This document shows, one piece after another, positions 35,026-39,538 of a stretch of 64,000 nt of DNA; position 1 is the stretch's first letter; the number at the start of each line of letters is the position of its first letter. The notes beneath the pieces were generated by a model. It did not search any database, had not been told where the DNA came from, and saw only the letters and a program-made list of their open reading frames with translations. Source of the stretch: Enterococcus moraviensis ATCC BAA-383. Lineage in GTDB: Bacteria > Bacillota > Bacilli > Lactobacillales > Enterococcaceae. Both the position numbers and the translations under genes were made by a program. The stretch is from contig NZ_ASWB01000001.1 in assembly GCF_000407445.1 (NCBI RefSeq), positions 62,001-126,000 on the forward strand. Reading direction: 5' to 3'.

Positions 35026-36672
35026 TTACCTAAAGAAAGATTTTTTTCGAATGATAGTGAAAAAAAGTAAGGCAATGGTGAACAGGACAGAAAAAATGAC
35101 AGACACTTTCTGAATGGGTGTTTTTTTGTAGGTTATACGAATATCATTAATACCTTGACTAAGTTTGACTGTGACCAAACCGTTTTTGTTGTAATTTTCA
35201 ACGACCTTCTGATTTACTTTTACTTCGTAACCTTTGTAATAAAATTTGGGTAGTTGAACTTCTTGGTTACCATTGATTCGTACCGAATATTCACTGTGAT
35301 TGTACTTGTTTATCGTCTTTTGAGATGGATTGACATAAGGAATCCCATCAATAATTAAATTAGGAGAAGAAAAATACGTTTTAAAGTCAGTATCTTTTAC
35401 GAGATATTCTTTACCATGACCAATTTCTGAAGCATAAAAATCAGTGAAATTATCATTCGTTACGGTAATATTATTTTGTACTTTACTTTGAATCAAATTA
35501 TTGACATTAAAACCAAGTGTTAAAAAGCTTGTTAAAACAATGAATAAAAGAACATCTTTTTTTGAAAGTAGCCGAAATTGCTCGATTAAAGAAACAGCCA
35601 ATAAACTAGCGAAAAAGGAAACGAACAATAATAATCGCCAAGGAAACTGAATCGTTGCTAAAATTGAATCGTTGAAAAGTCCCCAAGGAAAAAGGTTTGT
35701 AGCAAAAACGATCATTGCAAGCGTAATAAAAAATAGCTTTTTGTTTGTGGAGGATAATTTTCGATAGTTCACTGCAGCAACAATCAGACTAACGAGAAGA
35801 AATAGTCCGATATTAGGTTTTAATTCTGTAAAAGGTGCACTTAAATTGGCCAAACTATTTACAAATAGATTGCCCAGGCTAAAATTTAAGCCACTAGCCC
35901 ATAATGTAATAGTACTAAAATTAAACGTCAAATGGTTTATTTGCTCTAAATAGGGAAATAAAAACCAAGCAGATAGTCCAACGGCTAAAAGAGTCGCTTG
36001 AAGAATACTCTTGATTTGAGCAACTCTGCATTTTTTCCAGTGGATCAAAAAAAAGATGAGCAGTAAGATGACTGAATAGAAAGCAGTGATCAAGTGACTA
36101 GCAATCAATAAACTCATACCGACTCCGAGTAACTGCCAACGATGTTTATCACTATAAAAAATCGAGTAGACCCCTAATGCAACTAGAGGAATAAAAGCAA
36201 AGGCTAGCGTTTCGCCCAATGCCGCTCGAACAGATTGATCGATCAACCGATAGGTCGAAAGTGTGTAAAAGGAAGCGAATAACAAAGCTTGTTTGCGAGA
36301 ATTCTTAATCGTGAATAAAAAATAATAAGAAGAAACTGCGGTAATAAAACTGATCAATAACTGATATAAATAATAAGAGGGGACATATGAAAGCCCCAAT
36401 ATTCTAAATACTGCAAATGGCAATAACAAAATAGAGGGATAAAATAGATCAGCCCCGTAACCAAAATTTAAGCCCATATTAGAGAATATACGAGGAAAAA
36501 AATCCCAATGCCGTATGGCCAGAGTATAACTTTCCAATCTTGTTCGATGAAATATAAGATCATCTTGACTGAAAATATAGTTATTAAAAAAATAAGGGAA
36601 AATAGAAATGACACTAATCAAAAATAAAGCGGATAGAATGATGATTTTCGTCTTTTTTTCTTTTATATCCAA
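35026..36672 (-). CDS. Large membrane protein, YfhO/PTPS-related GT-C-like
   Basis: 548 residues from TTG 36672. About twelve membrane helices in the first 400 residues include an extracytoplasmic loop after the first helix with the acidic 'SQDDLIFHRTRLE', as in GT-C glycosyltransferases. An extracellular beta-rich domain (about 405-515) and a final anchor helix (about 522-540) follow. This resembles proteins annotated as 6-pyruvoyl-tetrahydropterin synthase-related or YfhO-like, which probably add sugars to surface polymers. Activity is inferred. Confidence 0.7.
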   Translation of the reverse strand: MDIKEKKTKIIILSALFLISVISIFPYFFNNYIFSQDDLIFHRTRLESYTLAIRHWDFFPRIFSNMGLNFGYGADLFYPSILLLPFAVFRILGLSYVPSYYLYQLLISFITAVSSYYFLFTIKNSRKQALLFASFYTLSTYRLIDQSVRAALGETLAFAFIPLVALGVYSIFYSDKHRWQLLGVGMSLLIASHLITAFYSVILLLIFFLIHWKKCRVAQIKSILQATLLAVGLSAWFLFPYLEQINHLTFNFSTITLWASGLNFSLGNLFVNSLANLSAPFTELKPNIGLFLLVSLIVAAVNYRKLSSTNKKLFFITLAMIVFATNLFPWGLFNDSILATIQFPWRLLLFVSFFASLLAVSLIEQFRLLSKKDVLLFIVLTSFLTLGFNVNNLIQSKVQNNITVTNDNFTDFYASEIGHGKEYLVKDTDFKTYFSSPNLIIDGIPYVNPSQKTINKYNHSEYSVRINGNQEVQLPKFYYKGYEVKVNQKVVENYNKNGLVTVKLSQGINDIRITYKKTPIQKVSVIFSVLFTIALLFFTIIRKKSFFR

Positions 36673-37016
36673 TTAAATACGCCTACTTTATAATATTATT
36701 TACTCTATTTTAACAGAAAATATGCAATTGTTTAAAATATTTATTATAAGTCAGGAAGGTTGATTGAAATATTTATGAAATTGTAAAAAGCCCACTAAAT
36801 AAATGATTAGTGAGCGAAATTTAGGTGAAAAAGCTGGCTATCTAAAGTAGTTTACAGCCAAATATACAAAAAAACGACAAATATTAACTAAGAGGTTGAA
36901 ATTAATAACTTTATGTAGTATTATGAATATACCCTAACAGTATTTTCATTTTACTCAATCCGAGTAATACTCCTTATCCCACCTTGAAAAAGGTGGGATA
37001 TTCTGTTCTCGTATAG
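36673..37016. other. Intergenic region with hairpins
   Basis: AT-rich, no gene seen. A hairpin ATCCCACCTT/AAGGTGGGAT (about 36976-36999) lies just after the end of the Rgg-type gene, preceded by the small dyad GAGTAATACTC (about 36962-36972). Neither has a clean U-tract. The promoter of the YfhO-like gene is probably the TATTATAA close to 36690 on the minus strand. Confidence 0.4.
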
Positions 37017-37931
37017 TCAACTATCTTTTAAAATACCAACAGAATAACTACTTAGCATTTTTTTGCTATCTCTCTCATGAGTGAGCATTTTTACTTCTTT
37101 TTTTACTTCTTGAGCTTGCATAATATCTCCTGCATTTTCTAATAGATGAATAAAGTCATAAACACGCTCCATGTAATGTGGTTCACCTTCAAGAAGATAA
37201 TTTAGGAGATTGTTTAAATACTGTAAATTTAGTTTGAAACTATAATTTTCATTTTGTTTGTCTTGCTTTTTTGCTAATTTAATATATTTTTCTGCACTTG
37301 CATAATCTTTTGCATAAAGTCTCAGTGAAATAAGGTTAATCAAAATATTATGAGCAAACTTTTTGGTAGTAAAGTCACGTTGTTCTTCATAATTAATTGG
37401 GAATAGTTTTGATATAAGCAAATCTTGCTGTTTTGTATTTATAAATCTAATAAGGTTATTGGTAATTACATAATCATACTGAAGATAAAATGATTTGTCC
37501 AAAAGATGTTTAAAAGTTTTGCTGATTTCTTCAGACGTTAGAGATTCAACTTCCTCCCAATTACCATGAAAAAAATTTTTAATTGCAATATAGTTGGATA
37601 GTTCTCGTAAAGTTTTTTTTTCTTTATCCTTTAAAGAGAAATAGTAAGTAAGTAATTTTTGTTTAGTTGTTTTATTTTCTAAATGAGTTGCACAGTAATA
37701 ATAGTATTTTCTAAAATGCTGTTGCTCTTTATCAAAAGTAGCAAAAGTAAAGAATTCTTCAGAGTTAATTGAGATATGACCAAGTATTTCTTCGAGCTCA
37801 CTGACTTTTAACGAACGCGTGTTACTCTCGATTTTTGAGTATGTAGAAGGATCGGTATAGTCAGGCATCATTTCACGTTGCGTAAGCTTTAATTTTAATC
37901 TGAAAAAACGCAGAGTTTCATTGATATTCAT
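37017..37931 (-). CDS. Rgg/GadR/MutR-family (RRNPP-type) transcriptional regulator
   Basis: 304 residues behind AAAGGAGA. The N-terminal 65 residues are an XRE helix-turn-helix ('LTQREMMPDYTDPSTYSKIE'). The remaining 240 residues are all-helical, with Tyr/Phe/Asn-rich TPR-like repeats typical of peptide-sensing Rgg, PlcR and PrgX proteins. It is divergent from a 22-codon hydrophobic peptide gene 211 bases away, the layout of Rgg-SHP quorum-sensing pairs. It is predicted to bind a processed peptide imported by an oligopeptide permease. Family call good; partner is inferred. Confidence 0.8.
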   Translation of the reverse strand: MNINETLRFFRLKLKLTQREMMPDYTDPSTYSKIESNTRSLKVSELEEILGHISINSEEFFTFATFDKEQQHFRKYYYYCATHLENKTTKQKLLTYYFSLKDKEKKTLRELSNYIAIKNFFHGNWEEVESLTSEEISKTFKHLLDKSFYLQYDYVITNNLIRFINTKQQDLLISKLFPINYEEQRDFTTKKFAHNILINLISLRLYAKDYASAEKYIKLAKKQDKQNENYSFKLNLQYLNNLLNYLLEGEPHYMERVYDFIHLLENAGDIMQAQEVKKEVKMLTHERDSKKMLSSYSVGILKDS

Positions 37932-38099
37932 AGGTATTTCTCCTTTCTTATGCGATTATAGCACATAAAAAGCAGTAAAACTTTATTTTTTTTTAAAAAA
38001 TCCAAATAATTAAAGATTTTCTTGCTAATTTCGCATTTTGTTGCTTTTTTACTTTTCAATCTCGGTGTTGTTTGTTATTCTTTACTTAAGGAAAATTAT

Positions 38100-38128
38100 T
38101 TGTTTGCAAACACTGATTTTTTTATTAT
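38100..38128 (+). promoter_or_regulatory. Promoter and palindromic operator for the peptide gene
   Basis: TTGTTT (38100-38105), 17 bases, TATTAT (38123-38128). The perfect 10-base palindrome GTTTGCAAAC at 38102-38111 covers the -35, a plausible Rgg binding site. The predicted transcript start falls close to the ribosome binding site, so the real start point is uncertain. Confidence 0.4.
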
Positions 38129-38142
38129 AAGTTGGAGGTGTT

Positions 38143-38211
38143 ATGATGGTTTCTTTTTTTATAGTAATAAGTAGTGCTATTGCTGTGTTTACTGTTTCCG
38201 CAGGAGGCTAA
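38143..38211 (+). CDS. Short hydrophobic peptide (candidate Rgg pheromone precursor)
   Basis: 22 codons from ATG 38143, or 21 from ATG 38146, which has the better spacing to GGAGGTG at 38134-38140. The peptide is almost wholly hydrophobic and small, lacks any charged residue, and ends in AVFTVSAGG. Size, divergent placement next to an rgg gene and the Gly-Gly end resemble streptococcal SHP precursors. It also resembles enterococcal pheromone precursors processed by Eep. It has its own terminator and no other gene in the transcript. Confidence 0.6.
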   Translation: MMVSFFIVISSAIAVFTVSAGG

Positions 38212-38458
38212 AACAATCTTTTTATAATCAAAAAAATTTTGTAAACAAAAAATTTAACTAAAAAATACTAAAATGTATAAGTAAAAAGTGCGCAACACAA
38301 AAGTTTAAAATAATAGCTTCTGATTTACTTTTCCTGTTGAATGAAGTAAATCAGAGGCTGTTATTTGTTTTGGTTTTAATTAGTTAAAAGGATAGGGTGA
38401 ACCCTAGTAAATTATGACTATATACAAAAATAAGTGAAAAAGAATTTCTTGTTTAAGA
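38212..38458 (+). other. Untranslated 3' region of the peptide gene and spacer
   Basis: No further gene is visible. About 100 A/T-rich bases separate the peptide stop from its terminator, longer than needed, so the transcript could have a second role as a small RNA. After the terminator there are about 90 featureless bases. Confidence 0.3.
38315..38370 (+). terminator. Terminator of the peptide transcript
   Basis: A 16-base arm (38315-38330) pairs with 38344-38359 with a single G-U mismatch position, followed by GTTATTTGTTTTGG. Confidence 0.7.
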
Positions 38459-38487
38459 TTGTTTAACTTTTAATCTTTTGCTATGAT
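38459..38487 (+). promoter_or_regulatory. Promoter of the 105-aa hypothetical gene
   Basis: TTGTTT (38459-38464), 17-base spacer, TATGAT (38482-38487). It gives a leader of about 105 bases before the ATG at 38600. Confidence 0.6.
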
Positions 38488-38599
38488 AATGGACGTTGAA
38501 GAAAACGAAATTGCGTAAAAAACCAAAACTTGGGAGAAACCTAAGTTAAACAGCTTTCCTAAATCTATTTTTTTGTTTGACGTAGAGGAGAAAATATAT

Positions 38600-38917
38600 A
38601 TGAAGAAAATCACTGCTAAAATGGTTAATATGTTAGTAGAAAATAAAAAAGAACGATTTGTAATCATTGTTAATCACTGTTTTTATTACATAGAAAAAGG
38701 ACATATTTATCGATTCCAACAACACAATAATACAAAAATGCTTACGGTACTGGGTTCATTTTATGACGGAGAAATAGAGAATGAACAGATGATCACTGCG
38801 TTGCAAAAAAGTATTATCGATCAAATGCAATATGATTGGTTTACAGATGTGTGGAAAGAAACGTTCTTTGAGCGAATCAATCGTTCTTCATCCGATTTTG
38901 ACGCATTCTTTTTTTAG
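38600..38917 (+). CDS. Hypothetical protein, 105 aa
   Basis: ATG 38600 has GAGGAG nine bases upstream; the longer in-frame start at 38573 does not. The protein starts 'MKKITAKMVNMLVENKKERF', then a beta-rich middle, and ends with an aromatic/acidic tail (SSDFDAFFF). There is no membrane segment and no recognised family. It stands alone with its own promoter between the peptide circuit and the V-ATPase leader. Confidence 0.6.
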   Translation: MKKITAKMVNMLVENKKERFVIIVNHCFYYIEKGHIYRFQQHNNTKMLTVLGSFYDGEIENEQMITALQKSIIDQMQYDWFTDVWKETFFERINRSSSDFDAFFF

Positions 38918-38943
38918 TTAGGAAAAGTGGATACACAAAGCAG

Positions 38944-38972
38944 TTGTAATTTAGATTTTTTTTTGCTAAGAT
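38944..38972 (+). promoter_or_regulatory. Distal promoter of the V-ATPase leader
   Basis: TTGTAA (38944-38949), 17 bases, TAAGAT (38967-38972). Transcription would begin near 38979, just before the structured leader. Confidence 0.5.
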
Positions 38973-38996
38973 TAGTTTATATGAATAAAAATGGTT

Positions 38997-39070
38997 GGGC
39001 GCAAGCTTCAAGGATCATGTTCTTCAAGGGGTGAGAAGAACGGTTTTTTGAACTTATGCCCTTTTTTTAT
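38997..39070 (+). promoter_or_regulatory. Structured leader RNA ending in a U-run: candidate riboswitch/attenuator of the ntp operon
   Basis: Nested pairing closes GGGC (38997-39000) with GCCC (39058-39061), then AAG (39003-39005) with CTT (39053-39055), TTCAA (39007-39011) with TTGAA (39048-39052), and an inner hairpin GTTCTTC (39019-39025)/GAAGAAC (39035-39041). Seven T follow at once (39062-39068). This is more elaborate than a plain terminator, with purine-rich loops (AAGGGGTGA). The E. hirae ntp operon is known to be induced by Na+, so a Na+-responsive leader is an attractive reading. I could not check it against known riboswitch models. Confidence 0.5.
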
Positions 39071-39076
39071 TTTTTC

Positions 39077-39143
39077 AATCAAAAATGAAGGGAATAGGCT
39101 GTGTTTCTAGTATATAGAGGCACATGTTATTCCCTTTTTGATT
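39077..39143 (+). terminator. Second leader hairpin before ntpF
   Basis: AATCAAAAA..GGGAATA (39077-39096) pairs with TATTCCCTTTTTGATT (39128-39143), leaving a 31-base loop. It may be a terminator or antiterminator of the leader. The proximal promoter TTGATT (39138) - 18 bases - TACAAT (39162-39167) overlaps its 3' arm. Confidence 0.5.
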
Positions 39144-39211
39144 GTATAAAAAAGAGATTCATACAATAATAAAAGTAAATACTTAGTAATCAATTGATTG
39201 GGGTGAATAAA

Positions 39212-39538
39212 ATGGTTTTAGAAGCATTAGATAAGATTCGTGAAGCAGAAGAAGCAGTCGAAAAGAAAAGGCAAGCGATCAAAAAAGAAATCGATAGCTA
39301 TGAACAAGAAAAGAACGCAGTATTTCAAAAAAGACAACAAGAAAGCCAAGTAAAAATAGCTCATTTACTTCATGAAATCGAGGAACAAAAAACAGAACAG
39401 CTTCAAAAAGAAAAAAGTCTCCTAATAAGTGATGCACAAAAGCAAAATCAAGATTTTAGAGAAAAGTATGAAAAGAACAAAGAGGTAGTTATTGATCACG
39501 TAATAGAAAGGGTGAAAAATATCTATGGCAGTCAATAA
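39212..39538 (+). CDS. ntpF: V-type Na+-ATPase subunit F (peripheral stalk)
   Basis: 108 residues from ATG 39212 behind GGGGTG; an upstream in-frame TTG lacks a proper site. It is almost one continuous charged coiled coil ('EAEEAVEKKRQAIKKEIDSY'), as expected for the stalk subunit that pairs with NtpE and holds the catalytic head against rotation. First gene of the operon; overlaps ntpI by 14 bases. Confidence 0.85.
   Translation: MVLEALDKIREAEEAVEKKRQAIKKEIDSYEQEKNAVFQKRQQESQVKIAHLLHEIEEQKTEQLQKEKSLLISDAQKQNQDFREKYEKNKEVVIDHVIERVKNIYGSQ

Follow-up and report, generated by a model that had tools for sequence, protein, structure and literature searches.

Does a regulator gene that faces a very short open reading frame (ORF) on the chromosome of Enterococcus moraviensis ATCC BAA-383 form a peptide signalling system, and if so, of which kind? 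The pair lies in a 64-kb stretch of the 3.59-Mb genome (G000:C1:62001-126000; hereafter the window), where the original prediction, made from the sequence alone, had seen an Rgg-SHP pair with an RRNPP-type regulator on the minus strand opposite a tiny plus-strand gene. Both ORFs are present (37017-37931 and 38143-38211) and the regulator has a predicted full-length PrgX/Rgg fold, in agreement with that description; the name Rgg-SHP did not hold, given a family profile nearer PrgX, no Rgg cut-off passed and a peptide devoid of charged residues. The window pair is an RRNPP-type receptor with a hydrophobic peptide, yet not a canonical Rgg-SHP system.

A PrgX/Rgg-type receptor and its peptide gene

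The AlphaFold2 model of the regulator comprises 17 helices and is predicted to have RRNPP architecture over its full length, with an N-terminal helix-turn-helix (HTH) domain and a C-terminal TPR-like helical repeat. PrgX and Rgg2 are full-length structural matches and nearly tied, while the top Foldseek match is NrpR of S. salivarius (9lth, E 1.3e-8); absence of a family from the VIA-align and Foldseek lists was never taken as evidence. By family profile PrgX ranks first (E 4e-29), followed by Rgg3 and Rgg2 (3e-17 and 1e-16), making PrgX the nearest solved relative. The window regulator itself gave no Rgg_C or TIGR01716 match at E<=1 and falls below every Rgg/PrgX family cut-off; among 66 aligned family members, 55 match Rgg_C and 37 match TIGR01716 at E<=0.01. 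Sixteen more genomes carry orthologs with 74-88% identity (bearers include Enterococcus sp. DIV0212c, E. caccae, E. ureasiticus, E. plantarum, E. crotali and E. quebecensis), bringing the total to 17 of the 22 Enterococcus genomes searched; every one of the 22 has at least two receptor-family matches, some of them fragments. In a receptor tree built without three orthologs and ten near-duplicate paralogs, the window orthologs form a separate clade (support 100/99) inside an unresolved fan that also holds prophage relatives.

The partner gene had been proposed to have 22 codons and a strong ribosome binding site. The longer reading from 38143 (MMVSFFIVISSAIAVFTVSAGG) is indeed an open, hydrophobic and uncharged frame, but conservation sets the start at the second ATG, 38146 (ATG in 16 orthologs, GTG in one), so the gene has 21 codons. 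The ribosome binding site is present, and the Shine-Dalgarno (SD) sequence GGAGG is retained in the orthologs, with 6-8 bases matching AAGGAGGTG in 16/17 and four in L016. Conservation of the pair across Enterococcus, put forward as a check, was borne out, the peptide frame being kept in all 17 genomes with an orthologous regulator. It has 21 codons in each, with no length change, and 214-218 nt separate its start from that of the regulator (215 nt in the window, counted from the second ATG). None of the 17 peptides, translated without any composition filter, contains K, R, D or E (the L018 peptide is MISLIAVVASVISVYVVTGGV). The window peptide ends in AVFTVSAGG; 12/17 ortholog peptides end in TGG plus one residue, and 5/17, the window included, in AGG or VGG.

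Codon-position entropies in the 17 orthologs were 0.63/0.42/1.11, the third position being higher (p=1.3e-4), and stops interrupt frames +1 and +2 in 17/17 and 6/17 orthologs, the peptide frame being open in all. Pairwise pN/pS (the ratio of non-synonymous to synonymous differences) was 0.52, indicating moderate purifying selection. The surrounding non-coding blocks look more conserved in the alignment than the ORF itself, as expected were the small ORF (sORF) untranslated and the conserved DNA boxes or an RNA all that mattered; the third-position bias, the open frame, the retained SD and the constant peptide length make this scarcely credible.

To place the pair in its family, we analysed 82 loci, the 17 orthologs plus 65 paralogs and more distant relatives, taken from the stronger matches with fragments and the weakest ones excluded. 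A detector run on the divergent upstream regions (14-30 codons, no K/R/D/E, mean hydropathy >=1, SD match of at least four bases) found a peptide sORF at 60/82 loci, comprising 17/17 orthologs and 43/65 others, compared with 1.1% of dinucleotide shuffles, 1/82 reverse strands and 1/296 window tiles. The association between receptor and sORF exceeds chance. With the composition filter dropped, the best-SD sORF was obtained at 53/81 loci, and 50 of these 53 were uncharged. Peptides at the expected position have 16-22 aa, with ends that include TGGV, AGG, VGG, IVAP and WVNI. Retained among the 82 and scored as misses were L032 (misplaced start) and L083 (only 226 nt of upstream sequence). A looser search of the 22 misses yielded charged or shorter candidates at L030, L069, L073 and L089, and an uncharged one at L031 just below the hydropathy limit. 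E. moraviensis itself has one paralog with a peptide, MLTVATAVAMSVFIWVNI, and a second, distant paralog (23%) for which the detector returned none. Taken together, we consider it highly probable that the peptide ORF in the window is a genuine gene and the partner of the receptor.

Two further arrangements were seen among the relatives. At L026/L132, two family receptors are divergently transcribed about 0.9 kb apart, with a candidate peptide for each between them. Upstream of position 5001 in L139 (record OR846600.1), a family receptor with 30% identity to L040 faces a divergent 15-codon ORF, MFDFDISLFLITLFR, with an eight-base SD match; L032 has MFGFDISLFLITLFR. That record is labelled Enterococcus phage, and its neighbouring genes are, as we take them, E. 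faecalis chromosome-like; the L139 ORF might encode the partner of a chromosomal receptor in E. faecalis.

Promoters, candidate operator and transcript end

Promoter anatomy was deduced by aligning the 17 ortholog intergenic regions, in which conserved islands appear in the order TATGCGATTATAGCA (regulator extended −10, minus strand), TGCYAATTTCGCAYTTT, TGTTTGYTATTCTTTACYTAAGG and then ATTTGTTTGC (Table 1). A sigma-70 consensus scan listed neither the peptide nor the regulator promoter. The motif TGNTANNNT, picked after the data had been seen, lies 50-95 nt ahead of the peptide start in 17/17 orthologs and 23/32 paralogs, versus 14% of paralog shuffles. Since the peptide promoter lacks a recognisable −35, it may be expected to require activation. 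Each of the 17 genomes with an ortholog has a single copy of the core promoter block, and the other five have none; the same holds for exact copies of the candidate operator TGCTAATTTCGCATTTT. With one mismatch, TGCTAATTTCGCATTTT gave eight further matches in the 22 genomes against two for the reversed-pattern control; a second target is not yet credible on these numbers, and an operator regulon was rejected.

Table 1. Coordinates of the features of the receptor-peptide locus in the window.
Feature	Position	Strand	Remarks
Regulator gene, PrgX/Rgg-type, HTH plus TPR-like helices	37017..37931	-	304 aa
Putative regulator promoter, extended −10 TGCTATAAT	37955..37963	-	Invariant in 17 orthologs
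Candidate regulator operator TGCTAATTTCGCATTTT	38023..38039	.	Centred near −57 of the putative start near 38088; putative function
Putative peptide promoter, extended −10 TGTTATTCT	38073..38081	+	Conserved block; no recognisable −35
Palindrome GTTTGCAAAC	38102..38111	.	Putative 5' leader; perfect in 15/17 orthologs
Shine-Dalgarno GGAGG	38134..38138	+	7 nt ahead of ATG 38146
Peptide gene, 21 codons from conserved start	38146..38211	+	MVSFFIVISSAIAVFTVSAGG; pair in 17/17 orthologs
Inverted near-copy of leader box, TTTTGTAAACAAAAAATTTAAC	38237..38258	.	3' of peptide gene; from 17-ortholog alignment, absent in L014
Long hairpin	38309..38365	+	In 17/17 ortholog genomes

A perfect palindrome had been placed at the peptide promoter. 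It exists and is conserved, but lies outside the −35 and −10 elements as we place them. It is the sole copy in the window, its GTTTGC is kept in 17/17 orthologs, and it is also present in paralogs L040, L049 and L094. Perfect palindromes of 10 nt are no rarity, the 64 kb holding 66; its weight comes from conservation, and we rejected it as stand-alone evidence. The best conserved −10 lies some 21 nt upstream of it, which probably puts the palindrome in the transcribed leader. A location at the −35 was also rejected: the bases after GCAAAC lack conservation, which places the conserved −10 upstream of the palindrome.

The claim that the peptide transcript has its own terminator fits the conserved hairpin beyond the gene, which a terminator scan did not list because its loop limit is 8 and this loop has 11 nt. 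In 5/6 orthologs with long flanks, the far side of the hairpin holds the end of a convergent gene (109-158 aa when the longest start is taken), for which reason we read the hairpin as a putative bidirectional terminator; no convergent ORF of at least 90 aa was found in E. plantarum (L007) or in the window ORF list. The hairpin was rejected as a dispersed repeat or microRNA-like element, matching at E<1e-15 once per ortholog genome (17) with weaker hits being its own complement or noise. The peptide was likewise rejected as a leader peptide for a downstream gene, the hairpin and convergent gene coming next.

Beyond the convergent gene, all six long-flank orthologs have a 105-115-aa gene followed by a V-ATPase-like operon, which we take to be the V-ATPase operon, and in 5/6 the opposite flank of the locus carries a YfhO-like gene (the window copy was the one tested against Pfam YfhO). 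In the window, the 105-aa protein (38600-38917, plus strand) had no Pfam or NCBIfam match, and a Na+ riboswitch aptamer (RF03071; 38993-39040, plus strand; 44.1 bits, cut-off 40.5) is found just upstream of the V-ATPase-like operon. On the regulator side, a sub-threshold match to Ref84, an Enterococcus small RNA (36930-37005, plus strand; 36.5 versus 52 bits), covers a hairpin 3' of the regulator; another (L018 3821-3903, 47.0 bits) occupies a different place relative to the regulator. A distant blastn search of the locus DNA found no plasmid copy, and protein matches on 15 plasmid records had 22.5-34.7% identity. With the same chromosomal neighbours in 6/6 long-flank orthologs and no conjugation operon downstream, the setting is not that of a conjugative plasmid. 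The window locus resides on the chromosome and is inherited vertically; it belongs to an enterococcal family in which some near relatives occupy prophage lysogeny modules.

Relatives in prophages and predicted antisense RNAs

We read the neighbourhoods of 19 paralogs (12 plus 7, the latter a non-random set chosen for carrying or neighbouring antisense RNAs or look-alikes). PHROGs identified an integrase and a CI-like repressor together in 8/19 (L127, L137, L138, L142, L143, L145, L146 and L147), all with the gene order cI, peptide region, receptor, integrase, and with the peptide on the strand opposite to the other three. These eight, but not the window locus, hold the receptor-peptide pair within a lysogeny module. 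An uncharged peptide is present at all eight (L040, L039, L041, L078, L094, L086, L072 and L070), the receptor is interrupted in L143, and PHROGs confirmed antirepressors in two modules. An antisense RNA between cI and the receptor has covariation support in L127, L137 and L138, matches a model in L142 and L143, and was assigned by eye in the remaining modules. In L128, L129 (weak, E 9e-4) and L141 the stretch has a CI-like gene but no integrase; neither gene was seen by eye, with no PHROGs scan, in L130-L136 and L144, although L135 has a serine-recombinase-like ORF. A 56.4-kb IMG/VR viral contig encodes one of these receptors, at 100% identity to query L040, and L047 matches the same contig at 55%; query L039 gave no match in the viral-contig scan. 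'Enterococcus phage Efs 1-1-1' was rejected as a phage-borne copy, the record being unverified and the neighbouring genes appearing chromosomal (Gls24-like).

A strict extended −10 (TGNTATAHT) opposite the peptide strand, 75-265 nt past the stop codon, was found in 27/35 paralogs, versus 4% of shuffles and 0/35 on the other strand; this motif was fixed after data inspection, an earlier scan of the 35 having used a loose one. At 29 loci folded from a hand-picked −10 (L026, L028, L051, L074, L081 and L096 being left out), the predicted antisense RNAs form hairpins, many closing just 3' of the peptide stop codon. The clearest class, A3 (six sequences), has a 5' hairpin, a three-way junction and a U-run end, with 40 pairs in the fold, 12 of them with double compensatory changes. 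Its covariance model matched 13 places at E<1e-3 in the 22 genomes, six being the training set. Six of the seven non-training matches lie within ~0.6 kb of a family receptor, five on the receptor strand and one (L124) opposite; among the seven, L122 and L123 had been seen by eye earlier, and the scores of L115 and L120 are equal, so these two may be copies. The seventh, the Anti-Q-like match L112 (G007:C6:196844-196944; 31.7 bits, E 5e-5), has no family receptor in the 3.1-kb stretch around it that was covered. At L041, L047, L050, L078, L086 and L094, the peptide strand carries charged 32-36-aa sORFs with an SD past the region of the antisense RNA; these are possible read-through targets.

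These RNAs bear on corepression of the PrgX-PrgQ type, in which the peptide would act as an inhibitor, like iCF10, that keeps the receptor repressing, the inducer being another, unlinked peptide. Among solved relatives the profile puts PrgX nearest, and by fold it nearly ties with Rgg2; the paralogs resemble pCF10, as described in the available text of PMC7117660, in their convergent promoter-like sites and Anti-Q-like RNAs; and one distant relative, L091, alone among 20 loci scanned, exceeds the Rfam Anti-Q cut-off (47.1 versus 45 bits). At the window, by contrast, an Anti-Q-like RNA was rejected, none being found in the stretch 36600-39300 or in L001 and L018. The R1 model, which finds only RNAs like its own, gave no match in L001, L010 and L018 and two in 39 further loci (E 0.47 and 1.1). 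Nor is there a conjugation operon downstream, and a peptide promoter without a −35 suggests activation. Corepression is thus the less probable mode of action, if one to be taken seriously, and activation, with SHP-type positive feedback, is likelier.

The antisense RNAs also recall type I toxin systems, where a small hydrophobic membrane peptide would be under control of the regulator and, in the paralogs, of the convergent structured RNA as well. This is very improbable for the present family: the peptide always lies opposite a receptor with a peptide-binding fold (though the set was chosen so), 16-18 aa is short for a membrane span, and no antisense RNA was found in the window lineage.

Candidate mechanism and its place among known systems

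On balance, we lean towards the locus being a self-contained peptide-receptor switch. The peptide would be released or exported, cut down to about 7-10 C-terminal residues (AVFTVSAGG for the window peptide) and returned to the cell to bind the TPR groove of the receptor. The bound receptor would then act differently at TGCTAATTTCGCATTTT, just upstream of the peptide promoter with its extended −10 and no −35, and activation there would create positive feedback of the SHP type. That the peptide is the ligand of the receptor is probable; for its acting between cells with positive feedback, we see the case as evenly balanced.

Several observations weigh against this switch. The model rests on sequence and predicted fold; 22/82 loci yielded no peptide under the detector; and the operator and core-block searches in the 22 genomes revealed no target beyond the pair at the stringency used. 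Constraint is only marginally stronger in the C-terminal half of the peptide gene (pN/pS 0.49) than in its N-terminal half (0.54), so no mature C-terminal segment is obvious, and reading one from selection was rejected for want of a clear gradient. The peptide also lacks a basic leader, which leaves export unexplained. An RseP/Eep-family protease is encoded in the genome but says little, as 14/14 control genomes match the family too. Likewise, the phage origin suggested for the window copy by the phrog_6563 match (E 3.6e-9) of the convergent gene next to ortholog L005, the single one tested, sits uneasily with the absence of that gene from the window and with a receptor tree that does not resolve such an origin; that the window copy has perhaps been domesticated is itself deduced.

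In another reading, the whole 21-mer would work inside the cell or leave it by a route of another kind, as described for leaderless communication peptides (LCPs) and RopB. The peptide has no charged residue or recognisable leader, the top Foldseek match of the receptor is NrpR, and LCPs, one of 9 aa having been tested in E. malodoratus, are released and re-imported without canonical machinery, according to the available text of PMC10518010. There LCP genes are under 30 bp, whereas the family peptides have 16-22 aa and the ortholog genes 21 codons in 17/17, outside the LCP definition; we regard a leaderless signal as improbable, the resemblance to RopB/NrpR-LCP systems being in receptor fold and lack of a leader.

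Returning to the switch, its components resemble several known systems in part. With Rgg2/Rgg3-SHP2/SHP3 it shares the divergent layout, the TPR receptor and, in 5/17 orthologs, the AGG/VGG end; SHP2/3 end in VGG (DI[I/L]IIVGG) in the portion of PMC3150281 available. It differs in a profile nearer PrgX and in peptides without the N-terminal basic residues that SHP-like propeptides harbour, as stated in the accessible part of PMC10075063 (RRNPP_detector). PrgX/PrgQ/Anti-Q of pCF10 is plasmid-borne, in line with PrgX-type receptors being placed only on plasmids in the available part of a 2022 survey (PMC9765709), whereas the loci described here have chromosomal, prophage or integrative and conjugative element-like settings, uncharged peptides of 16-22 aa and, at the window, no Anti-Q-like RNA. 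As with AimR-AimP-AimX of Bacillus phages, the receptor-peptide pair of eight paralog loci is flanked by a CI-like repressor on one side and an integrase on the other; these loci differ from arbitrium in the PrgX/Rgg-type receptor, the divergent peptide opposed to cI-receptor-int and the antisense structured RNA, and the window lies outside a prophage. The RRNPP homologs of E. faecalis reportedly treated by Parthasarathy et al. in 2020 are likewise chromosomal enterococcal receptors, a likeness by description only. Among the literature matches listed there was no description of this receptor-peptide family, and some pairs may have been listed earlier.

More tentatively still, the loci may represent an undescribed signalling family common to enterococci and temperate phages, with PrgX/Rgg-type receptors and charge-free pheromone precursors of 16-22 aa. 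Its phage wiring (cI, Anti-Q-like antisense RNA, receptor and integrase, with the peptide transcript opposed) would be an arbitrium-like density switch from a different receptor lineage, and the window its domesticated chromosomal member. Host and prophage could overhear each other, because the pheromone code of an ortholog is close to that of a resident prophage in genome G016, where the chromosomal peptide ends in ISVYVVTGGV and the prophage peptide in ISVYVITSGV. The available text of the same survey (PMC9765709) has Rgg occasionally carried by some prophages and Enterococcus making up less than 1% of the Bacilli genomes encoding RRNPPA proteins, while at least two matches to this family, whose nearest solved relative is the PrgX given there as plasmid-only, occur in all 22 genomes here. 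The peptide genes at 60/82 loci are too short and uncharged for leader-based detection. If these peptides signal, they would provide dozens of candidate pheromone codes, give partners to enterococcal receptors that still lack a ligand, and offer a phage lysogeny switch directly testable with synthetic peptides.
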